Source: Blautia pseudococcoides (lineage in GTDB: Bacteria; Bacillota; Clostridia; Lachnospirales; Lachnospiraceae). Taken from it: a DNA stretch of 64,000 nt. Where the stretch lies: positions 4,173,501-4,237,500 of the forward strand of contig NZ_CP015405.2 of NCBI RefSeq assembly GCF_001689125.2, read 5' to 3'. The position numbers and the translations under genes are program-made. Below, piece by piece: positions 10,538 through 29,140 of the stretch. Positions within the stretch are counted from its first letter, which is position 1, and the number at the start of each line of letters is the position of its first letter. The notes beneath the pieces were generated by a model. The model saw only the letters and a program-made list of their open reading frames with translations. It had not been told where the DNA came from and made no database searches.

Positions 10538-10613
10538 ACTGTTCTCCTTCCAACTTTTATTTGCAACTGCTCTGTATCTTTATAACTGTCCTTTACGGCA
10601 GCATTGATCATTC

Positions 10614-11444: not shown

Positions 11445-11459
11445 TTTCCTTCCTCCCCT

Positions 11460-12689: not shown

Positions 12690-12826
12690 GATCTACCCTC
12701 TCTTCCGAACAAAACAAAGGTGCCGTATTAAGTCAATGACATATATTTGTATATGTAGTAACGCCTGACACGACACCCCTTCTCTCACTCAAATCATTTG
12801 TTTCTGTGCGGATATCTGCACACTTT

Positions 12827-14161: not shown

Positions 14162-14223
14162 TTTGTTTCCTCCTTTTGTTGGTGTTTTACGATACTTACA
14201 TAAAATGTCACATCTTGGCTGTC

Positions 14224-14239
14224 GGTGTTGTGCAACACC
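14224..14239. promoter_or_regulatory. LacI-type operator 1 of alpha-glucoside operon
   Basis: GGTGTTGTGCAACACC has perfect 7-base arms around a TG centre. It lies 62 bases upstream of the binding-protein gene, between it and the divergent LacI gene. A second site of the same design is centred 63 bases away, about six helical turns, a spacing that suits a DNA loop. Confidence 0.75.
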
Positions 14240-14286
14240 TCTATTGATATACTAAACATTAGCATAATACCCATAATATGTAAATA

Positions 14287-14302
14287 GGTTTTATGTAAAA
14301 CC
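14287..14302. promoter_or_regulatory. LacI-type operator 2 of alpha-glucoside operon
   Basis: GGTTTTATGTAAAACC has perfect 7-base arms around TG and shares the pattern GGTkTTrTGyAAmACC with the site at 14224 and with the GH65 promoter site at 31508. Confidence 0.75.
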
Positions 14303-14483
14303 ATCACGATATATAATTTAAACACTATTTAATTATACACTTTGCATATATACATCCCTTGTACAATCATCAAATTATACATTTCCGTTTCTCTTTATCT
14401 GACAAATGGATGAACTTTCTGACAACCTCTTGCAATTTCCCTTATTTCTGCTATTCTATAATAGAAGTAATAAACAATACATT

Positions 14484-14616
14484 GTAACTGTTCAGTCCCT
14501 TCACAGTTAAAGCAGAAATCCATGCAGAATCGCCTTTGGCGATGGGATCCTTGCCTGGCTGCTGAATGTTTTCTTACGGTCATCGCAGTGAATGCGAAGA
14601 CCTGCTGAATAATTAC
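14484..14616. repeat. Small inverted-repeat element, long form
   Basis: The left end GTAACTGTTCAG and the right end CTGAATAATTAC are imperfect inverted repeats (10 of 12 paired) about 133 bases apart. The left end carries the 25-base module TAACTGTTC-N-ACAGTTA seen elsewhere. The interior has small stems such as ATCGCC/GGCGAT and no coding signal. It lies in the LacI/binding-protein intergenic region (535 bases). Related long forms lie at 17535 and 54894. Confidence 0.55.
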
Positions 14617-14696
14617 GATACATTACTTATGTCACACTCAGACTGAAACTTTCATACAACAGACGGCCCAAGCCGTCCGCATTTGGGGGTAACCAG

Positions 14697-15722
14697 ATGA
14701 TAACAATAAAAGAAATAGCCAATATGATGAATGTCAGTCCCACCACGGTTGCCAACGTGATCCACGGCCGCACCAGCAAGGTGTCCAAAGAAAACGTAGA
14801 ACGTATTCAGCAGGCTTTAAAAGAGCACAACTATGTGCCGAAGATGGGGCTGGAAGCCCTGACAAAAGGCAAGACCAGGCTGATCATCGTGGTGATCCAT
14901 ACTACCAAACGCTATACCCAGACAACCGTTGGCGACCCTTTCTACAGCCAGACCATCGGCGTCCTGGAGGAGGAGATACGCAGGGCAGGATACTATATGA
15001 TGCTCTATATAGACCGGAATCTTGACAATATTTTTAAGACTGCCCTCTCCTGGAATGTGGCAGGGATCATTGCCGTGACACTGTCAAAGACCAATTACGA
15101 AAAATTGTGCTCCCTGGTGGACTGCCCTGTAGTTGGCATCGACACATTCATGGAAGATACCGCTCCACTGCCGGATACAGGCTATCATGTGACCCTGGAT
15201 GATATCGGCGCAGGGAAACAGATGGTCAATTATCTGGTCAACACGGGGTTCTCCAATATTATTGTCATCTCAGACGCCAAGATAGGCTCCTCCGCACTGA
15301 GAGCGGCAGGTGCAAAAATAGCCTTGAAGGAGCATAATATAAGCACAGAAAAACAATGGCACATGGTTCTGGACACACAGAAAAGACGGCGGGACAGCCA
15401 GTACAATTCCCTTCTGGCACTGTCCGGCAAAAAGTATGTGCTTTTCTGTACCGCAGACCAGCTTGCCTTTGAGGTGATCGGTTATCTGAACGAGCATGGC
15501 TGCTATGTTCCTCAGGATATTTCCGTGTGTGGATTTGACGACAATCCTTATGCGGAGTTCTGTGTTCCCAAGCTGACTACCATGCATCAGGATATTGCCA
15601 GGAAAGGAGAATTGGCTTCCGAGATCCTGTTCCGGCTGCTGTCCGGAGAGAACGTGGAGGAGAAAGCGATCCGCCTTCCCGTGGAGCTGGTCGTCAGAAA
15701 AAGCGTCCTTCCGCCGGATTGA
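14697..15722 (+). CDS. LacI family transcriptional regulator of alpha-glucoside genes
   Basis: The 341-residue protein starts with the LacI DNA-binding domain (MITIKEIANMMNVSPTTVAN, hinge helix region around residues 45-60) followed by a periplasmic-binding-protein-like effector domain (IIVVIHTT through SVCGFDDNPYAEF). GGGGGT lies before the ATG, and a small hairpin (GACGGC/GCCGTC, 14662-14677) precedes it. It diverges from the importer-glucosidase operon. The palindromes at 14224, 14287 and 31508 have LacI-type symmetry, so it probably represses the importer operon and the GH65 operon until an alpha-glucoside or its product binds. Confidence 0.9.
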   Translation: MITIKEIANMMNVSPTTVANVIHGRTSKVSKENVERIQQALKEHNYVPKMGLEALTKGKTRLIIVVIHTTKRYTQTTVGDPFYSQTIGVLEEEIRRAGYYMMLYIDRNLDNIFKTALSWNVAGIIAVTLSKTNYEKLCSLVDCPVVGIDTFMEDTAPLPDTGYHVTLDDIGAGKQMVNYLVNTGFSNIIVISDAKIGSSALRAAGAKIALKEHNISTEKQWHMVLDTQKRRRDSQYNSLLALSGKKYVLFCTADQLAFEVIGYLNEHGCYVPQDISVCGFDDNPYAEFCVPKLTTMHQDIARKGELASEILFRLLSGENVEEKAIRLPVELVVRKSVLPPD

Positions 15723-15798: not shown

Positions 15799-15817
15799 TT
15801 CCTACACTTTGTAGGAA
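15799..15817. promoter_or_regulatory. Palindromic operator before methyl-transfer operon
   Basis: TTCCTACACTTTGTAGGAA has perfect 8-base arms around CTT. Its core reads CTACAAAGTGTAG on the minus strand, identical to the core of the site at 26189-26205 between the second PucR gene and the URO-D methyltransferase. It lies 31 bases upstream of the likely -35 box. Confidence 0.7.
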
Positions 15818-15847
15818 AACCCAAGAAAAATCCCCCCGTTTTGCGGC

Positions 15848-15875
15848 TTGTACTTTCTGGGCATTTTGGTACAAT
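15848..15875 (+). promoter_or_regulatory. Promoter of methyltransferase-corrinoid operon
   Basis: TTGTAC and TACAAT are separated by 16 bases, giving a sigma-A type promoter about 35 bases before the start codon. GGAGG precedes the ATG. Confidence 0.6.
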
Positions 15876-15909
15876 AAAGTTATAAATTTGTACAGGAGGT
15901 TTTGCAAAT

Positions 15910-16728
15910 ATGATAATTATTGGGGAAAAGATCAACGGCTCCATACCGGCAGTTGCAAAAGCCATCGCTGAGAGGGATGCGGAGTTCATCAAAGACCGCG
16001 CCAGAAAACAAGCTGCTGCCAACGCCACCTACATAGACTGCTGTGCTTCCGTTGCGGAAGAAGTTGAGGTTGAAACTTTAAAATGGATGATCGAATGTAT
16101 TCAGGAAGTTACAGACCTTCCAATCTCTGTGGACAGTCCCAGCGCCGATGTTTTGAAAGAGGCCTACAAGTTCTGTAATAAACCGGGTCTTTTCAATTCT
16201 GTATCAGGAGAGGGCAGCAAGATTGATACCATCTTCCCGATCATGGCAATGGAAGAAAACAAAGGATGGGAAGTAATCGCACTGTTAAGTGATGATACCG
16301 GCATTCCAAAATCTGCCGCTGACCGTCTCCGTGTATTTGACAACATTATGGCAAAAGCGGAAGAATACCACATCAGCCCCAGCCGTATCCACATTGACCC
16401 GCTGGTAGAGATGCTGTGTACTTCTGAAGATGGCATCGCCATGAACATTGAAGTCATTGAGACAGTACGGAAAAGATATCCGAACATCCACATTACGGCA
16501 GCCATCAGTAATATTTCCTTCAACCTGCCGGTCCGCAAGCTGATAAATTACGGCTTCATGATCCTGGCTATGAACGCAGGACTTGACAGTGCTATCATGG
16601 ATCCTACAAACCGTGATATGCTGGGACTTGTATATGCCACAGAGGCACTTATGGGCGAGGATGATTTCTGTATGGAATACATCGGCGCTTACCGCCAGGG
16701 ACTGATCGGACCTGCTCCGAAGAATTAA
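15910..16728 (+). CDS. Methyltetrahydrofolate:corrinoid methyltransferase
   Basis: This 272-residue protein belongs to the pterin-binding (dihydropteroate-synthase-like) methyltransferases that move a methyl group between a corrinoid protein and tetrahydrofolate. The opening IIIGEKINGSIPAVAKAI, the YIDCCAS strand, LPISVDSPS, and the pterin-contacting AISNISFNLPVRKLIN near residue 200 are all visible. The length is normal for AcsE/MtgA/MT II proteins. It is followed after 87 bases by a corrinoid-protein gene. In an acetogen it would feed methyl groups from a methylated substrate into the folate branch of the Wood-Ljungdahl pathway; the role as MT II of an O- or N-demethylase is inference. Confidence 0.9.
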   Translation: MIIIGEKINGSIPAVAKAIAERDAEFIKDRARKQAAANATYIDCCASVAEEVEVETLKWMIECIQEVTDLPISVDSPSADVLKEAYKFCNKPGLFNSVSGEGSKIDTIFPIMAMEENKGWEVIALLSDDTGIPKSAADRLRVFDNIMAKAEEYHISPSRIHIDPLVEMLCTSEDGIAMNIEVIETVRKRYPNIHITAAISNISFNLPVRKLINYGFMILAMNAGLDSAIMDPTNRDMLGLVYATEALMGEDDFCMEYIGAYRQGLIGPAPKN

Positions 16729-16815
16729 TACATTTATGTGTTCGTGTTGAGGAATAGCAATGATTAAGAAACCAGAAACTATCAAATATCTTTTAAGAAA
16801 TGGGAGGAATTTATT

Positions 16816-17448
16816 ATGAGTAAGATTCAGGTTGTTGCAGATGCTGTTGCTGCTGGAAAAGCAAAACTGGTTGGCGGATTGGTACAGGAAGCACTGGATG
16901 ACGGATGCCAGGCTGTAGACGTATTGAACGCTATGATCGATGCAATGGGCGTTGTAGGTGAACGTTTCAAAAACAACGAGATCTTTGTTCCTGAAATGTT
17001 AGTTGCTGCACGTGCTATGAAAAAAGGCGTTGAGGTCCTGAAACCGCATCTGGCAAGCGGAAGCGCTGGTGTCTGCGGCAAAATGGTCATCGGAACCGTT
17101 GCAGGCGACCTGCATGATATCGGCAAAAACCTTGTAGCTATGATGATTGAAAGTGCCGGATTTGAAGTGATCGACTTAGGCGTTGATGTACCTACAGAGA
17201 AATTCGTAGAGACCATCAAAGCAAACCCGGATGTTAAGATTGTTGGATGTTCCGCTCTTCTGACCACTACTATGCCTGCATTAAAAGCCACTGTAGAGGC
17301 ATTAAATACTCAGGATTTCCGTGGAAATATTAAAGTTATGGTTGGCGGCGCTCCTATTACACAGGAATTTGCTGATGAGATCGGCGCTGACGCTTATACT
17401 GCTGATGCTGCATCCGCAGCTCAGAAAGCAAAAGAGCTTGTAGCATAA
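16816..17448 (+). CDS. Corrinoid protein (methyltransferase cobalamin-binding subunit)
   Basis: This 210-residue protein has the two-domain layout of MtbC/MtgC/OdmA-type corrinoid proteins: an N-terminal helical cap (about 1-85) and a Rossmann-like B12 domain. The DxHxxG motif GDLHDIGKN puts the cobalt-ligating histidine at H100, and CSALLTTTMP follows in the position that holds the nucleotide loop. It would shuttle a methyl group as methyl-Co(III) between a substrate-specific methyltransferase and the pterin enzyme encoded just upstream. A second corrinoid protein is encoded at 22472-23107. A strong terminator follows 43 bases after the stop. Confidence 0.93.
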   Translation: MSKIQVVADAVAAGKAKLVGGLVQEALDDGCQAVDVLNAMIDAMGVVGERFKNNEIFVPEMLVAARAMKKGVEVLKPHLASGSAGVCGKMVIGTVAGDLHDIGKNLVAMMIESAGFEVIDLGVDVPTEKFVETIKANPDVKIVGCSALLTTTMPALKATVEALNTQDFRGNIKVMVGGAPITQEFADEIGADAYTADAASAAQKAKELVA

Positions 17449-17491
17449 TAAAATAAGCTAAAATCCATATCTGTCATGCATACCCTATAAA

Positions 17492-17534
17492 AGAGGGAGG
17501 AGGCGCCGTTGTTTGGCGCCTCCTCTCTCTTTTT
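17492..17534 (+). terminator. Strong terminator after corrinoid protein gene
   Basis: A 16-base-pair stem (core GAGGAGGCGCC/GGCGCCTCCTC) with loop GTTGTTT is followed by TCTTTTTG. Confidence 0.9.
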
Positions 17535-17678
17535 GTTACTGTTCACTCCGTTCTCAGCAACACGCTGCGCGATGCACAGATATGGTGCATATGCTCCATA
17601 TCGCGCTGGCAACCCTCGGGCTTTTCATGCATCCTGCATGAAAACACCTCGCGGGATAGTGGCTGAGTGAACAGTAAC
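17535..17678. repeat. Small inverted-repeat element, perfect 14-base ends
   Basis: GTTACTGTTCACTC at 17535-17548 and GAGTGAACAGTAAC at 17665-17678 are perfect inverted repeats bounding 144 bases. The interior has further palindromic stretches (GCGCGATGCA, ATATGGTGCATATG) and no coding signal. It sits between a terminator and the GH36 promoter, and together with these it fills the 338-base gap. Confidence 0.75.
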
Positions 17679-17711
17679 CTCTTTTTGCTATATTATTGTC
17701 ACAATGACATA

Positions 17712-17740
17712 TTTACGCTTCTCTCCCTATCCAATATAAT
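17712..17740 (+). promoter_or_regulatory. Promoter of alpha-galactosidase gene
   Basis: TTTACG and a perfect TATAAT are separated by 17 bases. A short inverted repeat, TGTCA/TGACA, lies just upstream around 17697-17708 and could be an operator. Confidence 0.65.
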
Positions 17741-17786
17741 GAACACAGAAGTCCGTTTTTATTTCTATTTTAAAGGAGAACAATCA

Positions 17787-19979
17787 ATGGCTATAAAGAA
17801 AGATACTACAGGAAAATTATTCACCCTGCTTACCAAAAACAGCATGTACCAGATGAAAGTGGATGACCTGGACTTTCTGGTACACACCTGGTTCGGAAAA
17901 AGAACACAGGTATTTGACTACTCCTATCTGAATGCGGGAAGAGACCGGGGCTTTTCCGGCAATCCTTACGCTGCAGGCGATAACCGGGCCTATTCCCTGG
18001 ACACCCTTCCCCAGGAATTTCCCACCTACGGCAACGGTGACTACCGTGAGAGCGCTGTACGGCTCCGTTATGCGTCCGGTGCTTCCTCCTGTGAATTCCG
18101 CTATGCGTCCGCTGAGATCTTGGAGGGCAAATATTCCCTTCCGGGCCTGCCTGCGTTCTACGCCCTGGAGGAAGACACTGCCGACACCCTGGTCATCACC
18201 CTGAAGGACAGCACCGGCAGCGTATATGTCCATCTCTATTACGGTGTCCTGGAAGAAAAGGATATCATCACCAGAAGCGTGACCGTGGAAAACAAAGGAG
18301 ACTCTCCTGTTTATCTGGAGCGGATCATGAGCACCTGTACCGATTTCCAGTACGGAGATTTTGACTTTATCAGTTTCTACGGACGTCATGCCATGGAAAG
18401 ACTGTACTCCCGCACACAGGTCCATCACGGCATCCAGTCTGTGGGCAGCACAAGGGGCGCATCCAGCCACCACTACAATCCCTTTGTAATGCTGGCCGCA
18501 AAAGATACCACAGAGACCCGCGGGGAATGCTACGGATTTTCCTTTCTCTACAGCGGTGACTTCCTTGCCGAAGCGGAAAAAGATCAGAGCGGACAGACCA
18601 GATTCCTCATGGGAATACACCCGGATAATTTCTGCTATAAGCTGGAATCAGGCGATTCCTTCCACGCGCCGGAGGCAGCCATGGTTTACAGCGCAGATGG
18701 GATGGAAGCCATCAGCCACCGTTTCCACTGTGCCATCCGCAATAACCTCTGCAGAGGGGAATACAAAAAAGCCCGCCGCCCTGTTCTTATCAACAACTGG
18801 GAGGGCACCTATTTTAATTTCACCGGGGACAAACTGGTAGAAATGGCAAAGCAGGCCAAAGACCTGGGCGCAGAACTGTTTGTTATGGATGACGGATGGT
18901 TCGGCAAACGTGACAGTGACAATTCCGGCCTGGGTGACTGGATCGTAAATGAAAAGAAACTGGGCTGTTCCTTACATGACCTTTCCCGCAGGATCCATGA
19001 CCTTGGGCTTAAATTCGGCATCTGGTTTGAGCCGGAATGTATCTCCGAGGACAGCGGTCTATACCGGGCACATCCTGACTGGGCCTTTAAAGTTCCTGAG
19101 AAAGACCCGGTGAGAAGCCGTTACCAGCTTGTCCTGGATTTCTCCCGGAAAGAAGTCCGTGACCATATTTACAAAATGATGTGCGATGTGCTGGACAACG
19201 CACAGGTGGAATACCTGAAGTGGGATTTTAACCGCAGTATCGGTGACATTTTCTCCGCGGCCCTTCCCGCAGACCGCCAGGGCGAAGCCGCACACAAATA
19301 CGTGCTGGGACTTTACGAATTCCTGGAAAATTTAAACCGGCGCTATCCCCACATGCTCATAGAGGGATGCAGCGGCGGCGGCGGAAGATTTGACGCAGGT
19401 ATGTTATACTACACGCCTCAGATTTGGACCAGCGATGACACAGACTCCATTGAACGTCTGAAAATTCAGTACGGCACCTCATTTGCCTATCCTGTCAGCA
19501 CCATGGGCGCCCATGTATCCGCTTCCCCCAACCACCAGACCGGAAGGGCTGCCTCCCTGGCAACAAGAGCCACTGTAGCTATGGCCGGCACCTTCGGCTA
19601 TGAGCTGGACCCGGCAAAACTGTCTGAACAGGAAAAAAAGGAAGTCAGGGAACAGATCGAGACCTTTAAAAAATATTATTTCCTCATTCAGGACGGTACC
19701 TACTACCGCCTGGCAAGTCCTTACGAAAATGAGGAGTACACCGTATGGGAATTCGCAGCCCGGGACAAGAGCGAAGCCCTGCTTGGCATTGTCTCCACAA
19801 AGCTCACAGCAAACAATCTCTTTACCTGCATTCGTCTGCGGGGACTGGATCCGGATGCCATGTACCGTATAGGCGATAAAATCTATCTGGGCGCTGCTCT
19901 CATGGATGCAGGGCTGCCCATGCCGGTGCCGGATGCAGAATATCAGAGCTGGAACCTGCATTTGGTAAAAGAATCCTAG
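17787..19979 (+). CDS. GH36 alpha-galactosidase
   Basis: This 730-residue enzyme matches the usual length of bacterial GH36 alpha-galactosidases, which remove terminal alpha-galactose from melibiose, raffinose and stachyose. The nucleophile lies in YLKWDFNR (D480) and the acid/base in WTSDDTD (D550); CSGGGGRFDAGML lies between them. No signal peptide is seen, so it is probably cytoplasmic. The reading frame is open 40 codons further upstream, but the ATG at 17787 follows AAAGGAGAACAATCA and the promoter at 17712-17740 lies inside the longer reading. It is a single-gene unit placed among corrinoid methyl-transfer genes, with no transporter beside it. Confidence 0.95.
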   Translation: MAIKKDTTGKLFTLLTKNSMYQMKVDDLDFLVHTWFGKRTQVFDYSYLNAGRDRGFSGNPYAAGDNRAYSLDTLPQEFPTYGNGDYRESAVRLRYASGASSCEFRYASAEILEGKYSLPGLPAFYALEEDTADTLVITLKDSTGSVYVHLYYGVLEEKDIITRSVTVENKGDSPVYLERIMSTCTDFQYGDFDFISFYGRHAMERLYSRTQVHHGIQSVGSTRGASSHHYNPFVMLAAKDTTETRGECYGFSFLYSGDFLAEAEKDQSGQTRFLMGIHPDNFCYKLESGDSFHAPEAAMVYSADGMEAISHRFHCAIRNNLCRGEYKKARRPVLINNWEGTYFNFTGDKLVEMAKQAKDLGAELFVMDDGWFGKRDSDNSGLGDWIVNEKKLGCSLHDLSRRIHDLGLKFGIWFEPECISEDSGLYRAHPDWAFKVPEKDPVRSRYQLVLDFSRKEVRDHIYKMMCDVLDNAQVEYLKWDFNRSIGDIFSAALPADRQGEAAHKYVLGLYEFLENLNRRYPHMLIEGCSGGGGRFDAGMLYYTPQIWTSDDTDSIERLKIQYGTSFAYPVSTMGAHVSASPNHQTGRAASLATRATVAMAGTFGYELDPAKLSEQEKKEVREQIETFKKYYFLIQDGTYYRLASPYENEEYTVWEFAARDKSEALLGIVSTKLTANNLFTCIRLRGLDPDAMYRIGDKIYLGAALMDAGLPMPVPDAEYQSWNLHLVKES

Positions 19980-20008
19980 AGATTTCAAGTAAAAACTTTT
20001 CATAACTT

Positions 20009-20038
20009 GACCGCGGCAGTTTACTGTTGCGGTCTTTT
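20009..20038 (+). terminator. Terminator after alpha-galactosidase
   Basis: The stem GACCGC/GCGGTC with inner GCAG/CTGT-type pairing is followed by TTTTCTGTT, 29 bases after the GH36 stop. Confidence 0.8.
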
Positions 20039-20078
20039 CTGTTATACTTACTCTATAGCAAAATTGGGGGAATGAAAA

Positions 20079-21815
20079 TTGAATACACATCAAGTAACTT
20101 TTATCCGTGAAGGTAAATGCATCCTGGCAGAAGAAGGCACCACTGTCCTGCAGGCACAGCGGCAGGCAGGCCTGGATCCGGATGCCCCCTGCGGCGGGCA
20201 GGGTACCTGCGGAAAATGCATGGTACACGTGACAAAAGGCCCCGTGACCGGCATTCTCAAAGCCTGCCAGACAAAGATCACAGGGGATATGACAGTTGAC
20301 ACCCTTGTGAGAGAAAAAGAACATGCCATTCTGGCTGAAGGCTTTTCCCGCCCGGTACCGCTCCATCCTCTGCTCCGGTTCGGCAAAATACATATCCGCA
20401 AGGTAAAGCCAGGGGATAATCTGTCCGACTGGGACCGCCTGAAACTGGCGCTGGAGGAAACCTTTAAAGAGAGCATGGAACATTTAAAACCCGATCTGGA
20501 AATAGCCTCCGGGCTGTATGAAATGCTCAAGGAGACGGACACCTGGTATGCGGCAGTGTCTCATGACACCCTTCTTGACTTGCAGAAAGAGCCTGTCAAG
20601 GGATACCTGGCCGCCTTTGACATCGGGACCACTACGGTTGTAGGGTATCTGATGGATGCACGCACAGGCAGAGTCCTGGCAGTGGAGAGCAGTATGAATC
20701 CCCAGGCCCAGTATGGCGCTGATGTGATCATGCGCGCCAACTATGCACTTGAAAACGGAACCGGAAACCTGAGTGCCTGCATACGCCGGACTGTCCAGTC
20801 GATCCTGGATTCCCTGGCTGAAAAAGCAGGCATCCCCACAGACAGCATATACCAGATCTGTATCGTGGGCAATACCTGTATGCACCACCTGTTTCTGGGC
20901 ATATCCCCGGGAGCCCTTGTACATGCCCCTTACAATCCGGCCATCAGCCAGCTTCTCTTTTTGGATGCCGCCTCTTATGACCTGCGCATCCATCCTAGAG
21001 GACAGCTTATCCTGCTTCCGGATGTGGCGGGCTTTGTAGGTGCTGATACCATGGGATGCCTGCTCTGTATCCGCCCGGACCAGCAGGAAGATATCTCTCT
21101 GATGATCGACATAGGAACCAACGGAGAGATGGTACTGGGCAACAAAGACCGGCTGGCAGCTTGTTCCACAGCCGCAGGCCCTGCTTTTGAGGGGGCTAAG
21201 ATCGAATGCGGCATGAGAGGCGCATCCGGTGCTGTGGACCACGTGGAATACAGGGATGGCACATGGAGCTATACCACTGTAGGCGGAGAAAAAGCCATTG
21301 GTATCTGCGGCTCCGGCCTGATCGACCTGATCGCCTGCCTGAGAAAAGCGGGGATCATAGATGAGGCCGGAAAACTTCTGTCAGAGGACGGCACAGCCGC
21401 CTTTACACTTGTCCCTGCCAAGGAGAGCGGAAACGGCAGCCCCGTTTATCTCAGTCAAAAGGATGTCCGGGAGGTACAGCTTGCCAAAGCCGCCATCGCT
21501 GCCGGTATCCGGCTTCTTCAAAAAGAGCTTGGCATCACCGAGGAGCAGATTGCCCATGTATATATAGCCGGAGCCTTCGGCAACTACATGAACCCTGAAA
21601 GCGCCTGTGACATTGGCCTCATCCCCATTTGCCTGAAAAAGAAAATCGTACCGGTGGGAAATGCTGCCGGAGAGGGTTCCAAGATAGCGCTCATCAACAG
21701 GGAAGAGTTATTCTACTCGGATACACTGGCAAAGGAGATATCCTTTGTTGAACTGGCTGCTTCCCCGGAATTCCAGGACTGCTTTGTGGACGAACTGGAA
21801 TTCCCGGAACAATAA
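20079..21815 (+). CDS. Reductive activator of corrinoid proteins (RACo-like, ASKHA fold)
   Basis: The 578-residue protein joins an N-terminal [2Fe-2S] ferredoxin-like domain, with cysteines C38, C44, C47 and C63 (APCGGQGTCGKCM), to a long ASKHA-type ATPase domain (AFDIGTTTVVGYL, DIGTNGEMVLG, GICGSGLID). Such proteins use ATP to drive electron transfer to oxidised Co(II) corrinoid protein and restore Co(I). The start is TTG at 20079, eight bases after GGGGG; a nearby ATG in another frame stops after 12 codons. It probably reactivates the corrinoid proteins encoded at 16816 and 22472. It is followed 48 bases later by the DUF2284 gene. Confidence 0.92.
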   Translation: MNTHQVTFIREGKCILAEEGTTVLQAQRQAGLDPDAPCGGQGTCGKCMVHVTKGPVTGILKACQTKITGDMTVDTLVREKEHAILAEGFSRPVPLHPLLRFGKIHIRKVKPGDNLSDWDRLKLALEETFKESMEHLKPDLEIASGLYEMLKETDTWYAAVSHDTLLDLQKEPVKGYLAAFDIGTTTVVGYLMDARTGRVLAVESSMNPQAQYGADVIMRANYALENGTGNLSACIRRTVQSILDSLAEKAGIPTDSIYQICIVGNTCMHHLFLGISPGALVHAPYNPAISQLLFLDAASYDLRIHPRGQLILLPDVAGFVGADTMGCLLCIRPDQQEDISLMIDIGTNGEMVLGNKDRLAACSTAAGPAFEGAKIECGMRGASGAVDHVEYRDGTWSYTTVGGEKAIGICGSGLIDLIACLRKAGIIDEAGKLLSEDGTAAFTLVPAKESGNGSPVYLSQKDVREVQLAKAAIAAGIRLLQKELGITEEQIAHVYIAGAFGNYMNPESACDIGLIPICLKKKIVPVGNAAGEGSKIALINREELFYSDTLAKEISFVELAASPEFQDCFVDELEFPEQ

Positions 21816-21863
21816 ATATTCCATTACTATAAAAGCTAAAGAATGATGAATGGGGGATTTTAC

Positions 21864-22403
21864 ATGATCGACTATGAACAACTGGTGAAACTGGGAACAG
21901 ATACCGGCTTCTCCCATATAGCACCACTAAAAGGCAGCACCATCAAGCTGCTTCCGGAGGTACGCCAAATGTGCGAAGCCAACACATGCGGAATGTACGG
22001 CAAACGCTGGAGCTGCCCTCCGGGATGCGGGACCCTGGAAGACTGCCGTGCCAGAATCCAGCAGTATAAAAACGGGATCCTGGTTCAGACCGTAGGCCAA
22101 CTGGAGGATGCCATGGATGGGGAAACCATGATGGAGACAGAGGCTTTGCATAAGAAAAACTTCTTTGCCATGGAAAAACTGCTGAGGGAAACCTATCCGG
22201 ACATGCTGGCCATAGGCGCAGGCTGCTGTACCAGATGTGAAACCTGCACCTACCCTGACGAGCCCTGCCGCTTCCCTAAAAAGGCCTTTTCTTCTATGGA
22301 AGCCTATGGTATGCTGGTCACTCAAATCTGCAAAGCCAACGATATGACTTATTATTATGGTCCCTGCACCATTGCCTATACCAGTTGTTTTCTGCTGGAG
22401 TAA
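21864..22403 (+). CDS. DUF2284 cysteine-rich metal-binding protein
   Basis: This 179-residue protein has two cysteine-rich blocks: CEANTCGMYGKRWSCPPGCG near residues 35-55 and CCTRCETCTYPDEPC around 125-140. The pattern is that of DUF2284 proteins, predicted to bind iron-sulfur clusters or another metal. The ATG at 21864 follows GGGGG by seven bases and is preferred over ATGs at 21843 and 21846, which lack a ribosome binding site. It lies between the corrinoid activator and the second corrinoid protein. A role in electron supply to corrinoid activation is a guess from position; no reaction is known to me. Confidence 0.8.
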   Translation: MIDYEQLVKLGTDTGFSHIAPLKGSTIKLLPEVRQMCEANTCGMYGKRWSCPPGCGTLEDCRARIQQYKNGILVQTVGQLEDAMDGETMMETEALHKKNFFAMEKLLRETYPDMLAIGAGCCTRCETCTYPDEPCRFPKKAFSSMEAYGMLVTQICKANDMTYYYGPCTIAYTSCFLLE

Positions 22404-22413
22404 GCGCTATTCG

Positions 22414-22450
22414 GTAACAGTTCAGCCCTCTGGACTGTTACGCCTTTTTC
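22414..22450 (+). terminator. Hairpin terminator with repeat-family arms
   Basis: GTAACAGT and ACTGTTAC form a stem extended by CAG/CTG, followed by GCCTTTTTCT. The arms resemble the ends of the dispersed GTTACTGTTCAC elements, so a repeat copy may serve as terminator here. Confidence 0.65.
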
Positions 22451-22471
22451 TCATTGAAACAGGAGGACATC

Positions 22472-23107
22472 ATGACTACTTTAGAAGAACTTCGTCAGGC
22501 AATTGAAGACGGGCATCCGCGTGATGCCCAGTTTCTTGTGTCCAGAGCTTTGGATGAACATATCCATCCTTCCGTCGTTGTGGAACAGGCTATGGTACCT
22601 GCCATGAAGACTGTAGGGGAATATTACAAGCAGAACGATGCTGATATCCCCAAAATACTGGCGGCTGCCCGCAGTGTGAGAAAAGGATTTGACATCCTGG
22701 AGGAGCGATGCGGCGCCTTGGAAGAACAAAGCATTGGCACTGTTATTCTGGGTACTGTCGAAGGAGACCTGCACGATGTTGGAAAAAACCTGGTTGCGAT
22801 CATGTTCCGCAGTGCCGGCTTCAAGGTCATTGACCTCGGAGTTGACATTCCGGAAAAGCAATTCCTGAAAGCGGTTCGTGATAATCCGCAGGTTTCCATT
22901 GTATGTATCTCATCCCTGCTCACCACCTCCATACCGGAAATGCAGCAGGTTGTCAAATCTCTGCGCCGCCACGACAAGCAGCACCGGCTGAAGATCATGG
23001 TGGGAGGCGGTGCTGTCACACAGGAATTCGCCGACTCCATCGGTGCGGACGCCTACACGGAAACCGCAGTGGATGCTGCGGAAAAAGCCAAGACATTTAT
23101 CGTATAA
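22472..23107 (+). CDS. Second corrinoid protein
   Basis: This 211-residue protein is homologous along its length to the corrinoid protein at 16816: helical cap, then the B12 domain with GDLHDVGKN (ligand H101) and CISSLLTTSIPEM. AGGAGG lies before the ATG at 22472, which is preferred over an in-frame TTG at 22454. It ends 13 bases before a PucR regulator gene. With two corrinoid proteins and one visible pterin methyltransferase, each may serve a different substrate-specific methyltransferase, one of which is the URO-D protein at 26346. Confidence 0.92.
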   Translation: MTTLEELRQAIEDGHPRDAQFLVSRALDEHIHPSVVVEQAMVPAMKTVGEYYKQNDADIPKILAAARSVRKGFDILEERCGALEEQSIGTVILGTVEGDLHDVGKNLVAIMFRSAGFKVIDLGVDIPEKQFLKAVRDNPQVSIVCISSLLTTSIPEMQQVVKSLRRHDKQHRLKIMVGGGAVTQEFADSIGADAYTETAVDAAEKAKTFIV

Positions 23108-23120
23108 ACGGGGGATCACT

Positions 23121-24653
23121 TTGAAGTTATCAGCAGTGCTTTTATCCGAAATGATGAATAAAGAATTTCATGTTATCTCTCAGGGAAATCTGGATACAAC
23201 TGAGAGTTTTCTTCGTCCATTTTTATATGAGGACGGTTCCGGCTTTTCCACAGGGCATATCTGTCTTGTGAGGGCCAAAGACACGGAATCACTGGCCTCA
23301 CAGCTCACAGGACCGGTCTTTCTGATCATCTCCTTAAGACCCGGTGAAAGCTTTACAACGCCTTCGCACCCCTATCTGGTTCTGGATACCGGCTATACTC
23401 TGAGCCGCATCTTCAATTTTATCCAGGACCTCTACGACACTTTTGACACCTGGGATGAACGCCTCAGTACCATTCTGCTGAGCAACGGCAGTGTCCGTGA
23501 CCTTCTCAGTGTATCCCTGGAAATCTTTCATAACCCTCTGTGTGTCATCGGACTGGATTTTACACCCGTGGCTAATGCCGGGACAGAAGGGATACCGGAA
23601 AAATATCATCTGTACTCAGAGGATGGCTTGAACATTGAATATGTTAATGCACTGGCTCAGGATGAGGACTACACAAAAATGCTGGACTCCGACGTTCCTG
23701 TATTCTTCCCGGGTTATATTACGGGGCTGAACACCCTGAACGTCAATGTGCGGCAGGACGGGCATACCACACACCGTCTGGCACTCATAGAATATGAGCA
23801 CCCCATAGAGAACGGCAACGGCTATCTGCTTGCCCATCTGGGAGGCTATGTGGAATATCTGCTCTACCACGAACAGGCCCCTGCCTCACGGCAGTCCGAT
23901 GCGCTGCACAAGATCCTTCTTACCGTGCTCTCTGACCGCACAGCCGACTATCTGGACATCAGCCAGAGACTGTCTGCCCTTGGCTGGAGCACACAGCACG
24001 ATTATCTGTGCCTGATCTTCCAGATCACCTATCTGGATCAGAAGAAAATCACCACCAGGGCTATCTGCAACTATCTGGAAAAACAGTTTCCCTATTCCTG
24101 CAGCTTTCTTTTCAAAGAAGAGATCGTCACATATTTTAATCTGAGCCGCCTGGATATGGATGAAGATACCGTAGCGGGCAGCCTTACTTATTTCATCAGG
24201 GACAGTTTCCTGAAAGCCGGATACAGCCGCCCCATGCAGGGCCATATGAATCTGCGGCGCCAGTATATCCAGGCCAGCACAGCCCTGGATGTGGGAAGCC
24301 GGAAAAAGCCGTACCTGTGGATCCACCACTTCAACAATGTGGCACTCACCTACATCCTGGAACAGTCCACACGCAGACTGCCCGGATATATGCTGTGCCA
24401 TGACAAACTTCTTGATCTGCAGAAAATTGACCGGGAGCAGAATACGGAATACATGCTCACCCTCAGAACTTATCTGGAAGAAAATCTCAACGCCACACAG
24501 GCTGCCTCATTGCTGTTCATCCACCGAAGCACATTTCTTTACCGCCTGGATAAGATCAAAAATATTCTGGATTCCGGTCTGGATGACCCGGAAGAAATTT
24601 TTTATCTGAACCTGTCCTTCCGTCTTCTGGAGCAGGAGGAGGAAAAAAATTAA
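23121..24653 (+). CDS. PucR/CdaR family transcriptional regulator
   Basis: The protein is about 510 residues from a TTG at 23121, placed after GGGGGATCAC; this gives an N terminus (KLSAVLLSEMM) comparable to that of the minus-strand paralog (MKLTFYQIYYHL). A longer frame to 23010 overlaps the corrinoid gene and is rejected. The C terminus carries the PucR helix-turn-helix (ATQAASLLFIHRSTFLYRLD), and the N-terminal two thirds is a PucR-like sensory region. It ends by overlapping the oppositely oriented paralog by four bases. It probably senses a methylated substrate and controls the methyl-transfer genes. Confidence 0.85.
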   Translation: MKLSAVLLSEMMNKEFHVISQGNLDTTESFLRPFLYEDGSGFSTGHICLVRAKDTESLASQLTGPVFLIISLRPGESFTTPSHPYLVLDTGYTLSRIFNFIQDLYDTFDTWDERLSTILLSNGSVRDLLSVSLEIFHNPLCVIGLDFTPVANAGTEGIPEKYHLYSEDGLNIEYVNALAQDEDYTKMLDSDVPVFFPGYITGLNTLNVNVRQDGHTTHRLALIEYEHPIENGNGYLLAHLGGYVEYLLYHEQAPASRQSDALHKILLTVLSDRTADYLDISQRLSALGWSTQHDYLCLIFQITYLDQKKITTRAICNYLEKQFPYSCSFLFKEEIVTYFNLSRLDMDEDTVAGSLTYFIRDSFLKAGYSRPMQGHMNLRRQYIQASTALDVGSRKKPYLWIHHFNNVALTYILEQSTRRLPGYMLCHDKLLDLQKIDREQNTEYMLTLRTYLEENLNATQAASLLFIHRSTFLYRLDKIKNILDSGLDDPEEIFYLNLSFRLLEQEEEKN

Positions 24654-26173
24654 TTCTCCTCCTCCATAATATAAAAGGAGGCGGACAGGTAAAGCCTGGA
24701 ACGGAAATCCTCCAGATCCATCTGGGTCAGTTCAAGGATCCTCTCCAGCCGGTTCAGGAATGTACTTCTATGTATAAACAGTTTTTTTGCTGTCAGTGCC
24801 GCGTTATATCTGCACTGAAAATAGCAGTACAAGGTCTTATAGTACTCTGTATGCATTTTCGCATCATGCCCTTTCAGTACCAAAAGCCCGGGAGCACAGA
24901 TCTGCTCCGGTTCAAATTCCCCTCTTCCATGTATGAGAATATAATCCAGCGCATAGTCATCAAACCTGAAGTACCATGGTGTGGAGTCTTCTTTTATCCC
25001 CATCTCGAGGGCGATATCGGTCTGCTTAAAGGCTGTCTGTATCCCCTCAAACCCCCGGAATCTCCGGCTGACTCCTGCTGCAAGAAGGTTTTCCCTTAAA
25101 AAATAAGCCAGCTCCGGCTGAAAGTCTGTCATATGAAGCCTGCTGCCGTTCAGCAGAACCATCAGGCTGTCATTATATGCCACACAACAAGTATCCTTCC
25201 ACTGAAGTTCCATCTGAGGACACAGGTATTTGTCATACAGGGACTTATCATACCTGTAGCTCGGACGCATCTGGATCAGGTAATAGAGATCATCTTCTGA
25301 CCAGGAAACATTGACCAGAGCGGTCCTGAGCCTCTCACCGGGAACAGAATTCCCCCTCAGTTTCAGCCTGAGCATTTCATGCAGGCTGTCTAAGGCACGG
25401 TCAGCTATGTGAAAGGCCCCGAACCGCTCATACATCCGCTCCACATAATCTGCCGCCATATGGAGCAGGTCTTTGTGGTATTCATTATCCAACGGTGAGG
25501 TGCAGGATACAGCCAGCAGTTTGCCTGTAAACTCCCCCTCGAAAAACAGGTTCTTGCAGAGAAAGGTCATCTGCTCCAGCGAATAGGTATACACCCCGGC
25601 AAGCGTTGTGCTCCGCTGGTAAGACGGGTCTGAGATCAGCTGGCTCACCAGCGGCATGGGCAGTGCATGGCTTTCGTTGATAAATCCTTTTTTAAATTTC
25701 CCATCCCTGTCAGCCAGCGCCACATATGAAAAATTGGCATCTGTCAGAGCCAGGGAGGTGTCAAAGATTCTGCCGAAGCAGTCTATCAGTTCTCCGAAAT
25801 CCTGGTTCTCCATAAAAACATCCGTCACCGCGCGCTCCACATCCTCAAAATACTGGAAAATCTCCTGCAGGTCATTGAGCACCTGCTCTCTGGATTCTTT
25901 TTTGTCCAGCACAAGCAGGTCTGTATCAATCCGACAAAATATATCATCCACTTCCCCAAAACAGATAAAAATACAATCCTTCCACAGGGATGACTTCAGG
26001 TCTATTCTTCTCAGTTCACCACTCTCGATCAAAATCAGGTGCCCCCTGCACAACTGTCCCTCCCTGTAATAAACAGGCCTTTCCACCTTGATCTTACCGG
26101 GATTGCAGGAAATTCTCCTGGCTTCATACTTTTTTTTCAGATGATAATAAATTTGGTAAAAAGTAAGTTTCAT
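24650..26173 (-). CDS. PucR/CdaR family transcriptional regulator
   Basis: This 507-residue protein has the same layout as the convergent gene at 23121, ending with the PucR helix-turn-helix (NAALTAKKLFIHRSTFLNRL). The two share the HRSTFL recognition helix and similar N termini, so they are distant paralogs. The gene diverges from the URO-D methyltransferase gene at 26346, and the palindrome CACTACAAAGTGTAGTG lies 16 bases upstream of its start codon. It is therefore the best candidate for the protein that binds the CTACAAAGTGTAG sites and may also regulate itself. Confidence 0.87.
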   Translation of the reverse strand: MKLTFYQIYYHLKKKYEARRISCNPGKIKVERPVYYREGQLCRGHLILIESGELRRIDLKSSLWKDCIFICFGEVDDIFCRIDTDLLVLDKKESREQVLNDLQEIFQYFEDVERAVTDVFMENQDFGELIDCFGRIFDTSLALTDANFSYVALADRDGKFKKGFINESHALPMPLVSQLISDPSYQRSTTLAGVYTYSLEQMTFLCKNLFFEGEFTGKLLAVSCTSPLDNEYHKDLLHMAADYVERMYERFGAFHIADRALDSLHEMLRLKLRGNSVPGERLRTALVNVSWSEDDLYYLIQMRPSYRYDKSLYDKYLCPQMELQWKDTCCVAYNDSLMVLLNGSRLHMTDFQPELAYFLRENLLAAGVSRRFRGFEGIQTAFKQTDIALEMGIKEDSTPWYFRFDDYALDYILIHGRGEFEPEQICAPGLLVLKGHDAKMHTEYYKTLYCYFQCRYNAALTAKKLFIHRSTFLNRLERILELTQMDLEDFRSRLYLSASFYIMEEEN

Positions 26174-26188
26174 ACAAAATCATCTCCT

Positions 26189-26205
26189 CACTACAAAGTG
26201 TAGTG
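26189..26205. promoter_or_regulatory. Palindromic operator shared with methyl-transfer operon
   Basis: CACTACAAAGTGTAGTG has perfect 7-base arms around AAG. Its 13-base core CTACAAAGTGTAG is the same as the minus-strand core at 15802-15814. It sits in the divergent region between the second PucR gene and the URO-D gene. Confidence 0.7.
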
Positions 26206-26284
26206 TATCCATACTGAAAAGTCAATTATTTCATCGTATTTACTGCTTATGACAATTCTGTTATTATAATTATTATAAATCTAG

Positions 26285-26305
26285 CAGGGAAACGTGTTTT
26301 CCCTG
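26285..26305 (+). other. Leader hairpin of URO-D gene
   Basis: CAGGGAAA and TTTCCCTG form a perfect 8-base-pair stem in the expected 5' untranslated region, without a T tract. It may protect the transcript or act in attenuation. Confidence 0.4.
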
Positions 26306-26345
26306 ATTTCACGTTGGGGTTTCAGACAAAGGAGGTATTCATTTT

Positions 26346-27338
26346 ATGTTGACCAGAAGACAGAATTTATTAGAGACGATCCGCGGCGGTCATCCAGACC
26401 GTTATGTAAACCAATACGAGGCATTGGGAATGATTTTCGGCAATCCTTATACGGCTGCCAGCCCAAGCCCGGAATACGGCAAACCCCCGATCAAAAACGC
26501 ATGGGGCGTAACCATGGTGTGGCCTGACGGAACACCTGGCGGATTCCCGATCCACGATGAAGAACATATTGTCTGCAAAGATATCACGCACTGGAGAGAT
26601 TATGTGAAAGCTCCGCGCCTGGATTATTCTGATGCAGAGTGGGAGCCATTTATTGCTGAAACGGAAAAAGTAGACCGCAATGAATATTTTGTCACCCAGT
26701 TTATTGCACCGGGACTTTTTGAGCAGTGCCACCATCTGCAGGAGATCCAGAACGCGCTGATCAATTTCTATGAGGAACCGGAATGTACCCACGAATTGAT
26801 TGAATTCCTCACAGACTGGGAACTGCAGTACGCAGAAAAGATCTGCAAATATATCAAACCGGACGCCATCTTCCATCATGATGACTGGGGAAGCCAGACT
26901 TCCACCTTTATCTCCCCGGATATGTTTGAAGAATTTTTCCTTCCGTCCTACAAAAAAATTTACGGCTACTACAAAGACCACGGCGTAGAAGTTGTGATCC
27001 ACCATGCGGATTCCTACGCGGCAACTCTGGTTCCGTTTATGATCGAAATGGGAATCGACATCTGGCAGGGCTGTATGACCTCCAATAACATTGCGGATCT
27101 GATCGCCAAATACGGCGAGAAGGTTACCTTCATGGGTGGTATTGACAGTGCTTCCGTAGACCGTCCCGACTGGACACCGGAGCTGGTGGAAAAAGAAGTA
27201 CGCCGCGCCTGCCAGGAATACGGCACAAAATATTACATTCCGTGTATTACCCAGGGTCTGGGAATCAGTACCTTCCCGGGTGTTTATGAGACAGCCAGTG
27301 AGGCAATTGAGAAAGTAAGCAAAGAGATGTTCAAATAA
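26346..27338 (+). CDS. Uroporphyrinogen-decarboxylase-like corrinoid methyltransferase
   Basis: This 330-residue protein belongs to the URO-D family branch that includes MtaA/MtbA and the aryl O-demethylase component MtvB: IFGNPYTAASPSPEYGKP near the start, HHDDWGSQTSTFISPDMFEEF near 180-200, and GVYETASEAIEKVS at the end. No heme-synthesis neighbours are present, whereas corrinoid proteins, an activator and a pterin methyltransferase are. It is therefore likely the substrate-specific methyltransferase that moves a methyl group onto a corrinoid protein. In the region where MtaA carries a zinc HxC motif this protein reads VIHHADS, so metal binding may differ. The substrate is unknown; methoxylated aromatics are one possibility. 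Confidence 0.8.
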   Translation: MLTRRQNLLETIRGGHPDRYVNQYEALGMIFGNPYTAASPSPEYGKPPIKNAWGVTMVWPDGTPGGFPIHDEEHIVCKDITHWRDYVKAPRLDYSDAEWEPFIAETEKVDRNEYFVTQFIAPGLFEQCHHLQEIQNALINFYEEPECTHELIEFLTDWELQYAEKICKYIKPDAIFHHDDWGSQTSTFISPDMFEEFFLPSYKKIYGYYKDHGVEVVIHHADSYAATLVPFMIEMGIDIWQGCMTSNNIADLIAKYGEKVTFMGGIDSASVDRPDWTPELVEKEVRRACQEYGTKYYIPCITQGLGISTFPGVYETASEAIEKVSKEMFK

Positions 27339-27720: not shown

Positions 27721-28362
27721 TTATTCTCTCCAGTCTTTGTTTACAGGCACACCTTTGCGGAAATACTCCTTATCCTCATCTGTGATAGGCCTGGCCACGC
27801 GGCACGGAGTTCCGAACGCTATCACATTATCCGGGATATCCTGTGTAACCACACTGCCGGCCCCGATAACCACATTATTTCCTATGGTTACACCCGGCAT
27901 GATCACCGCGTTGGCGCCTATCCATACGTCGTTGCCGATATGCACCGGAAGGGAGAACTGCGTGGCGTCTCTTCTGAATTCTCCGTATACCGGATGTCCG
28001 GTCACACAGATAGATACATTCGGTCCGCACATAACATAATCCCCGATATACACATCCACATCATCCACGATCACCAGGTTAAAGTTAGCATAAAAGTAAT
28101 TGCCCACATGGGTATTACATCCGTAGGAAAAATTCACCGGTGACTCGATCCAAACCTCATCTCCCAGAGAACCAAGTATCTGTTCCAAAAGCTCACGCTT
28201 CCGTCCATAGTCGGACGGGTTTGTCTGATTATAGGCGAATGTCAGCTCCTTGCCGTGCTTTCTCTGCCTTTCGATCAGTTTTTCGTAGGCAACATCTCTT
28301 TCATCCTTGTGCCCGAATTCCCGGTACAAAAGACCGCTTTTCATCTGCTGTTCCAATGACAT
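27721..28362 (-). CDS. Sugar O-acetyltransferase (maltose/galactoside acetyltransferase type)
   Basis: This 213-residue protein has the Mac domain (SLEQQMKSGLLYREFGHKDERD...) followed by left-handed beta-helix hexapeptide repeats (IGNDVWIGANAVIMPGVTIG, VVIGAGSVVTQDIPDN). The catalytic histidine lies in VTGHPVYGEF. Such enzymes acetylate non-metabolised sugars with acetyl-CoA. GGAGG precedes the ATG. It lies 126 bases after beta-phosphoglucomutase, probably in the same operon, where it could detoxify sugars that accumulate. Confidence 0.9.
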   Translation of the reverse strand: MSLEQQMKSGLLYREFGHKDERDVAYEKLIERQRKHGKELTFAYNQTNPSDYGRKRELLEQILGSLGDEVWIESPVNFSYGCNTHVGNYFYANFNLVIVDDVDVYIGDYVMCGPNVSICVTGHPVYGEFRRDATQFSLPVHIGNDVWIGANAVIMPGVTIGNNVVIGAGSVVTQDIPDNVIAFGTPCRVARPITDEDKEYFRKGVPVNKDWRE

Positions 28363-28488
28363 ATATTCAATCCTCCTGTATGTCCACTATTTTATCAAAC
28401 TTTTCCCGTAAAGTCACGAAAATTAACGTTCCGGCAGATTTGCGCATTTACTGTACGGACTGTAAGAAAGGCTCCCGGTAGAGGCCAT

Positions 28489-29130
28489 TCAGCCGCCCAC
28501 CGCCAAAAGCAGATCCGAGAATGTATCCAGATCATAATCGGCCTTATTGCATTTTACCGCGTCACCCATGGCAGCGCAGTCCATATTCCCTGCTATAGCC
28601 GCCTCCAGACCGGACTGGGCATCTTCCACCACCAGACAGTCCTGTGGCTGCAGATTCAGGTACTCTGCAGCTTTCAGGAATACTTCCGGGTCGGGTTTGG
28701 AACGTGAAATATTATTGCCGTCTGAAACTGCATCAAAATATCCGTCCAGTCCCAGACGCTCCAATATAAATCCTGCATTCTTACTGGAGGAACCGATCGC
28801 CAGAAGAAGTCCCCTGCTTCTCAGTGTATCCAGTGTCTCTTTCACCTGCGGGTCCAGGTCATCGGTGGTCATATTTTTCAGAAGTTCACGATACAGGTCA
28901 TTTTTTTCCGCCGCATAGCGCACTTTCTCCTCCGGGGACATCTGACCATGATATTTTTCCAATATAATATCAAAACTCTCCATCCGGCTTACGCCCCTGA
29001 GTCTGTTGTTGATCTCCTGGTCAAAATAGATACCCAGCTTGTCAGCCAGTTTCTTCCATGCCTGGTAATGGTATTGGTCCGTATGGCAGATCACGCCGTC
29101 CAGGTCAAAAATAATTCCTTTATATTTCAT
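28489..29130 (-). CDS. pgmB: Beta-phosphoglucomutase
   Basis: This 213-residue HAD-superfamily enzyme has nucleophile D9 and acid/base D11 in IIFDLDGVICHTDQYHYQAW, the substrate-specificity loop RLRGVSR, the motif-II serine in AIGSSSKNAG, and the motif III/IV region SRSKPDPEVF and VVEDAQSGLEAA. It converts beta-glucose 1-phosphate to glucose 6-phosphate. Its ribosome binding site AAGGAG overlaps the stop of the GH65 phosphorylase gene ten bases upstream, so the pair is coupled: the phosphorylase makes beta-glucose 1-phosphate and this enzyme carries it into glycolysis. Confidence 0.95.
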   Translation of the reverse strand: MKYKGIIFDLDGVICHTDQYHYQAWKKLADKLGIYFDQEINNRLRGVSRMESFDIILEKYHGQMSPEEKVRYAAEKNDLYRELLKNMTTDDLDPQVKETLDTLRSRGLLLAIGSSSKNAGFILERLGLDGYFDAVSDGNNISRSKPDPEVFLKAAEYLNLQPQDCLVVEDAQSGLEAAIAGNMDCAAMGDAVKCNKADYDLDTFSDLLLAVGG

Positions 29131-29140
29131 GGTTTTCTCC

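Follow-up and report, generated by a model that had tools for sequence, protein, structure and literature searches.

The closest described systems are the four-component O-demethylases Odm and Vdm of Acetobacterium dehalogenans and ZL-II of Eubacterium limosum. These consist of a URO-D superfamily substrate methyltransferase (MT1), a corrinoid protein, a methylcorrinoid:tetrahydrofolate (H4folate) methyltransferase (MT2), and an activating enzyme (AE) (PMC8398226, PMC12915777, PMC13222342, PMC8630106). All four components are also present in a locus of Blautia pseudococcoides, located within the 64,000-nucleotide stretch analyzed here (contig NZ_CP015405.2, positions 4,173,501 to 4,237,500), which is referred to as the window. 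The three-component MtvABC system of Moorella thermoacetica shares the URO-D MT1, the corrinoid protein, and the H4folate MT2 with the locus (same sources). Compared with Odm, Vdm, and MtvABC, the locus has three additions: DUF2284, which recurs regularly as a fifth gene, PucR-type regulators, and, in Blautia, a second corrinoid protein.

Three further systems share components with the locus. Mto of Methermicoccus shengliensis demethoxylates aromatics and has an MtvB-related MT1, a corrinoid protein, a methyltransferase, and an activase in one operon. The MtoB proteins are 47-48 kDa, while the URO-D protein of the window has 330 residues, and a term search of the text available for that paper did not find DUF2284 named for Mto (PMC8630106). 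The chloromethane system CdmBCA also has a URO-D MT1, a corrinoid protein, and an MT2, with its activator encoded apart from cdmBCA, but is haloalkane-specific (PMC13222342). Type 1 mlp gene clusters share URO-D proteins, a corrinoid protein, and a RACo-type activase with the locus, and DUF2284 occurs in look-alike clusters. Unlike the locus, mlp clusters are defined by at least two Mlps and the lack of a tetrahydrofolate methylase within 20 kb (PMC10418091).

We read the locus, with considerable confidence, as the hub, or central part, of an O-demethylase-type system for corrinoid-dependent methyl transfer in an acetogen-like Blautia. Judging from its genes, it very probably removes methyl groups from methylated compounds and channels them into acetate formation. 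MT2 would hand the methyl group to tetrahydrofolate and so to the Wood-Ljungdahl pathway, and the RACo-type activator would re-reduce the oxidized Co(II) corrinoid at the expense of ATP. RACo and the corrinoid protein would have the DUF2284 protein, most plausibly an iron-sulfur (Fe-S) protein, as a partner. Further URO-D methyltransferases elsewhere in the genome, several of which are accompanied by a transporter or PucR-type gene, would probably feed the same hub.

A preliminary description, made from the sequence alone, had read this region as an O-demethylase-type gene set moving methyl groups toward folate. Every gene it named was found again by open reading frame (ORF) and domain scans, including all four canonical components (URO-D MT1, corrinoid protein, MT2, and RACo-type activator). 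The reading as such a set agrees with the H4folate methyltransferase on the acceptor side and with the carbon monoxide dehydrogenase/acetyl-CoA synthase (CODH/ACS) encoded in the genome. The main line of that description was correct: this is a real system of a known kind. The points added here are its hub role in its own genome and DUF2284 as a regular, cysteine-rich partner, which is the new element.

Components, gene order, and copy numbers

Genes in the window were called from an ORF scan and from domain scans at Pfam and NCBIfam cut-offs, and are listed in Table 1. The genome searched is a single contig of 5,128,746 bases. Related loci (labeled L) are the best 80 of 579 confirmed in the named genome collection, and the 21 of these 80 that have a RACo relative of at least 40% identity in the stretch examined are called hub loci. 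A separate search of the genus covered 20 Blautia genomes, including that of the window. The two sets share members, since L020-L024 represent at least five of the ten genus genomes that have no GH36.

The 21 hub loci contain MT2 in 19, CP1 in 19, DUF2284 in 21, CP2 in eight, and PucR1 (at least 38% identity) in 15. Neither GH36 nor PucR2 (at 38% identity) was found in any of them. MT2 is missing in L018 and L023, and CP1 in L018 and L038; all three stretches begin at a contig end, yet L018 still has 1.7 kb 5’ of RACo without a CP1 match. Conversely, L019, one of the 59 related loci without RACo, is a hub cut by a contig end. The gene set is beyond chance, as judged by this co-occurrence in RACo-bearing related loci.

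Within the genus, a CP1 ortholog of at least 83% identity (83-100%) is present in 13 of the 20 genomes (12 whole and one partial at a contig end) and absent from seven. The gene directly after CP1 is RACo in 10 of the 13 and GH36 in three (the genome of the window, G295, and G300). The order in G295 and G300 (L184 and L185) is LacI-MT2-CP1-GH36-RACo-DUF2284-CP2-PucR1-PucR2-URO-D. Four other genus stretches (L186-L189) have the order MT2-CP1-RACo-DUF2284-CP2-PucR1-URO-D, without GH36. PucR2 is 83% identical in L184 and 81% in L185, and was not found in L186-L189.

Because GH36 and PucR2 were seen only here and in two close genomes, they are best read as insertions in this lineage. The apparent dispersal of the hub genes would result from these insertions and appears recent. 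The preliminary description, whose gene list lacked GH36, had treated a split into four units as meaningful; the methyl-transfer set stands, and the significance of its split arrangement is not supported, as the interruptions were seen in these three genomes only. By the same distribution, the surrounding sugar genes (ABC transporter, GH13, LacI, GH65, and beta-phosphoglucomutase) are best taken as neighbors rather than parts.

The RACo C-terminal domain has two matches in the genome, one in the window and one at 1.20 Mb. The latter is AcsV (1025 bits), adjoining AcsE and the CODH/ACS alpha/beta subunit. Pterin-binding matches number three: AcsE (by NCBIfam), the MT2 of the window, and, at 3.13 Mb, a strongly matching protein, probably FolP. 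The hub holds the sole RACo besides AcsV and the sole MT2-type pterin protein besides AcsE. PF02607 has three matches, two in the hub and one beside an MttB. URO-D has 17 matches, at least one of them in a short 159-residue frame. MttB has four, none of which is in the window and one of which adjoins the third corrinoid protein. From these counts, the locus looks like a hub shared by scattered methyltransferases.

URO-D and RACo matches were also counted in ten other genomes, where the RACo counts include AcsV and fragments. The respective numbers are 15 and 2 in L018 (B. schinkii), 14 and 3 in L017, 8 and 3 in L030, 23 and 3 in L033 (Murimonas intestini, record UNVERIFIED_CONTAM), 30 and 3 in L035 (B. 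parvula), 32 and 7 in L075 (Sporobacter termitidis), 10 and 3 in L088 (Acetitomaculum ruminis), and 11 and 4 in L024; the other two genomes are taken up below. A single 8-kb stretch of the A. ruminis genome encodes AcsV (947 bits), RACo, DUF2284, MT2, and CP1, and so links the hub to acetogenesis. A low number of activators relative to systems is already known from A. dehalogenans, with 26 systems and one characterized plus three putative activators (PMC13222342).

Two small frames lie near AcsV. A. ruminis has a 214-residue protein between AcsV and the hub RACo (L192:4795-5439), and a 216-residue ORF lies 3’ of AcsV in the genome of the window (L114:14601-15251).

Table 1. Features of the locus, with positions in the window.
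Feature	Position	Strand	Evidence
MT2, methylcorrinoid:H4folate methyltransferase	15910..16728	+	NF005719 328.8 bits (cut-off 259)
CP1, corrinoid protein	16816..17448	+	PF02310 and PF02607 above cut-off
Terminator-like hairpin 3’ of the MT2-CP1 unit	17489..17533	+	20-pair stem, T tail
GH36 alpha-galactosidase, probable insertion outside the system	17667..19979	+	PF02065 501 bits
RACo-type ATP-dependent corrinoid activator (AE)	20079..21815	+	RACo_C_ter 279.7, Raco_middle 170.6, Fer2 30 bits
Cysteine-rich DUF2284 protein, candidate Fe-S protein assisting corrinoid activation	21843..22403	+	PF10050 171 bits
CP2, second corrinoid protein (alternative ATG 22472)	22454..23107	+	PF02310 and PF02607 above cut-off
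PucR1 regulator	~23010..24653	+	HTH_30 64 bits, GGDEF_2; longest frame overlaps CP2
PucR2 regulator, divergent from the URO-D gene	24650..26173	-	HTH_30 62 bits
URO-D superfamily substrate methyltransferase (MT1), 330 residues	26346..27338	+	PF01208 59 bits (cut-off 23.9)

The closest solved relatives of MT2 are 4o0q, 4o1e, and 4o1f (E 3.5e-79), deposited under the title ‘Dihydropteroate synthase DHPS’. The MT2 of 4O1E and 4O1F is presumably that of a D. hafniense O-demethylase. These two entries have been used as models of an MT2 with methyltetrahydrofolate (CH3-H4F) and tetrahydrofolate (H4F) (PMC13222342). RACo has its closest solved matches in 3zyy and 4c1n. CP2 is 45% identical to CP1, and both are below the cut-off of the MtgC model NF047996 (167.3 and 196.8 bits, respectively, vs 370). 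The true start of PucR1 is probably later than that of the longest frame.

Terminator-like hairpins matching the consensus are also present 3’ of GH36 (20009-20034) and DUF2284 (22414-22441). Together with the hairpin after CP1, they make several transcription units plausible. The terminator scan of the window returned 17 sites vs 13.1 (standard deviation 4.3) in shuffles, so that the class is not above chance, and the promoter scan returned 23 vs 17.6, near expectation. At Rfam gathering scores, the window gave seven tRNAs, a partial 23S rRNA, and no other match, riboswitches included. One flank (8879-15722) carries alpha-glucoside/galactoside genes (GH13, ABC transporter, and LacI), and the other (27721-31426) an acetyltransferase, a beta-phosphoglucomutase, and GH65. 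The positions of LacI in the first flank and of the acetyltransferase, beta-phosphoglucomutase, and GH65 in the second are conserved in G295 and G300.

The URO-D protein and its satellites

The search with the URO-D protein returned 3285 relatives at E ≤ 1e-3 out of 3689 candidates. A profile of its clade matched no solved structure at E ≤ 0.01. One relative, a 579-residue protein of Vescimonas fastidiosa that is 36% identical, is a URO-D protein fused to a corrinoid protein. The corrinoid part is 45% identical to CP1 over 189 residues. This fusion argues that the URO-D subfamily acts on a corrinoid protein. A search of the plasmid collection gave four records below 60% identity, one of which is the same fusion.

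In V. fastidiosa (L197:5457-7740, NZ_AP023416.1), the fusion gene is directly 3’ of a DUF2284 gene, with a homocysteine S-methyltransferase family gene divergent from the two. The RACo gene of this replicon is at a distance from them, near 776 kb.

Its own genome encodes three further members of the subfamily of the hub URO-D protein, which are its nearest kin there, in L106 (67% identity), L102 (62%), and L100 (69% over 266 residues). L105 contains a more distant relative (40%). An MFS_2 transporter gene adjoins the URO-D gene in L102, L105, and L106. A PucR-type gene is adjacent or one gene away in L105 (by similarity) and L106 (by HTH_30), and L100 has nearby a protein with the GGDEF_2 domain, which is also present in PucR1. 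A tree was constructed from the own-genome proteins, their relatives, and the E. coli HemE. The own URO-D paralogs have long branches, so only groupings inside the 330-residue clade were used. Each of L100, L102, and L106 forms a pair with a Blautia parvula locus (ultrafast bootstrap 100%), which makes these satellites older than the split of the two species.

The URO-D gene of L100 (L100:6766-8074, near 2.548 Mb) has an open frame of 268 residues that is missing its N-terminal part and abuts a short frame that is possibly a piece of a transporter. It looks like a deletion remnant, with a full-length B. parvula relative in L041.

In the 59 related loci without RACo, URO-D has an MFS_2 relative no more than 2.5 kb away in 13 cases and a PucR relative no more than 4 kb away in 25. 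Among the 35 of these with at least 4 kb on both sides, the numbers are nine and 15. Neighbors of 24 satellite loci were picked by a codon-usage script (90 in total), and 69 were scanned; the 21 left out are mostly farther away. The most frequent families are MFS_1 (nine), PucR HTH_30 (eight), and MFS_2 (five), and no glycosidase is among the 25 of 128 families listed.

The pattern E-X14-E-X20-H, taken as the zinc motif of OdmB and VdmB, is absent from the URO-D protein of the window. It is present at 14 of 94 matched places, duplicates included, and was not found in this form in the literature search.

Plant polyphenols and drugs are altered by O-demethylation in the gut, for which most methyltransferase genes are unassigned (PMC12915777). 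Should a single hub serve many MT1s, corrinoid demethylation in such Blautia would be expected to cease on loss of RACo or MT2 alone, and the satellite URO-D genes could be assigned singly.

Substrate class and other readings

Methoxylated aromatics are the likely substrates. They fit the observations above and the O-demethylation reported for Blautia strains (PMC9602652, PMC8398226, PMC9560768). Several observations weigh against the reading as an O-demethylase-type hub. L021 and L051 have one URO-D and two RACo matches each, so that in two of the ten genomes there is a single URO-D match; many MT1s per hub are common but not general. The URO-D protein scores 39 bits against the MtaA/CmuA model (TIGR01463, cut-off 235.4) and 21.3 bits against the hemE model (TIGR01464, cut-off 302.95), far below both. 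No MFS_2 gene lies within 2.5 kb of URO-D in any of the 21 hub loci, and the hub has no transporter that would name the substrate. As CdmB illustrates, a URO-D MT1 may also be specific for haloalkanes (PMC13222342). Further RACo-MT2-corrinoid protein clusters with a distant URO-D-like gene exist in Blautia parvula (L190, 6.05-6.07 Mb) and Murimonas intestini (L191). They are more classical-looking and, by the RACo count, appear to have no counterpart in the genome of the window. Given the B. parvula cluster, published Blautia demethylation need not stem from this type of hub.

The hub might instead serve other methyl donors, such as haloalkanes, methyl-sulfur or methyl-selenium compounds, or O-methyl sugars, which we hold to be possible though rather unlikely. 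URO-D methyltransferases do include the chloromethane enzyme CdmB (PMC13222342) and the Mlps (PMC10418091), the own-genome satellites have MFS_2 transporters of the ‘sugar’ type, and sugar genes surround the hub. On the other hand, GH36 is outside the conserved hub, the satellite neighbors are led by MFS_1, PucR HTH_30, and MFS_2 with no glycosidase among the families listed, and the locus has the H4folate methyltransferase that mlp clusters lack.

The reading of the locus as a type 1 mlp cluster for methyl-sulfur or methyl-selenium metabolism is very improbable. A URO-D protein, a corrinoid protein, and a RACo-type activase do occur together, and DUF2284 is also found in clusters resembling mlp clusters. 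However, the window has one URO-D match, with the nearest other about 100 kb away, and MT2 is an H4folate methyltransferase within the locus. Membership was rejected, as two defining features of mlp clusters are lacking.

GH36 inside the gene order raises the idea that the alpha-galactosidase is part of the system, with a galactosylated methyl-inositol such as galactopinitol as the substrate. This too has very little probability, as GH36 follows CP1 in three of the 13 genus genomes with a CP1 ortholog and in none of the 21 hub loci, and the literature search found pinitol, demethylation, and corrinoid nowhere together. The idea was rejected with GH36 taken as a lineage-specific insertion.

That the URO-D protein is a heme-pathway decarboxylase and a mere neighbor of the corrinoid genes, as its PF01208 superfamily membership would allow and as the preliminary description had named as its refuting case, is scarcely credible: HemE membership was rejected on the TIGR01464 score, ten own-genome URO-D paralogs scored with the same model reach at most 24.5 bits, the gene is syntenic with RACo and mostly also with MT2 and CP1 in 21 loci, and a relative is fused to a corrinoid protein.

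The DUF2284 protein

DUF2284 starts after a gap of 27 nucleotides 3’ of RACo in the window; its distance from the RACo match is 0-273 bases in each of the 21 hub loci. A survey of the class covered 293 genomes, including that of the window. RACo is present in 51 of the 61 genomes with DUF2284 vs 123 of the 293 overall (odds ratio 11.3, uncorrected for kinship). Among the matches listed, DUF2284 and RACo starts are within 6 kb of each other in 21 pairs, found in 20 of the 44 genomes that have the two genes, compared with about 0.8 pairs expected from random placement in 2.7-Mb genomes.

Nineteen DUF2284-RACo loci, excluding that of the window, contain a CP1-like ORF in 14, a URO-D-like ORF in 15 (several at 21-30 bits), and an MttB-like ORF in three. 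MT2-like sequence is limited to one fragment, with some stretches stopping at contig ends. By these counts, DUF2284 accompanies a corrinoid protein and an activator with or without a nearby folate methyltransferase. In Vescimonas, DUF2284 is 7 nucleotides 5’ of the URO-D-corrinoid fusion. The plasmid collection has three records with DUF2284 relatives (Vescimonas and two Subdoligranulum variabile), and in one of the S. variabile records it is about 0.4 kb from RACo.

Eleven cysteines (C44, C49, C58, C62, C68, C129, C132, C135, C142, C163, and C182) are conserved in 28 or more of 31 distinct DUF2284 sequences. We infer from these that DUF2284 may carry Fe-S clusters, and its position suggests an Fe-S accessory of corrinoid activation.

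A stronger proposal is tentative. DUF2284 of this type could be a dedicated Fe-S partner of corrinoid reactivation, acting as the natural electron donor of RACo-type activators or as a factor that handles corrinoid for them. It would then be a fifth component common to folate-linked demethylases and to clusters without a folate methyltransferase, with the wider family in corrinoid and methyl metabolism. The electron donor of the activator is named in the cited text only by examples such as ferredoxin or flavodoxin (PMC6739815). If DUF2284 feeds electrons to RACo, this would identify the in vivo reductant of the activator. Against a dedicated role, the three other DUF2284 genes of the genome are near no RACo or PF02607 match, 72 of the 123 RACo genomes have no DUF2284, and no DUF2284 match was found in the RACo stretches L190, L191, and L193. 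In addition, an arsenite-methyltransferase/DUF2284 selenoprotein is listed elsewhere (PMC13188914).

In the parts of the literature covered by the search, no link between DUF2284 and corrinoid methyl transfer was found. A term search of the available text of PMC10418091 gave no mention of DUF, metal-binding, unknown function, hypothetical, or accessory protein.

DUF2284 also occurs in other forms. In L217 (2259-3827), a protein that joins the domain to an O-methyltransferase is encoded next to CobT and a B12-binding radical SAM protein. The same stretch has a ThiC-family frame, cut by the stretch end, with a BzaB match below cut-off. L218 (2209-3789) has the same arrangement by its ORF starts, the domain scans being those of L217. 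This context appears to be an operon of the lower-ligand (bza) type. Long DUF2284-type proteins of 369-633 residues are present in L219, L220, L221, and L222. Those of L221 and L222 adjoin genes that resemble methylthioadenosine phosphorylase in their first residues, and L222 also has an IF-2B family (MtnA-like) gene. A NifU_N-like protein was identified in L221, the only one of these scanned for it, and look-alikes are present in L220 and L222.

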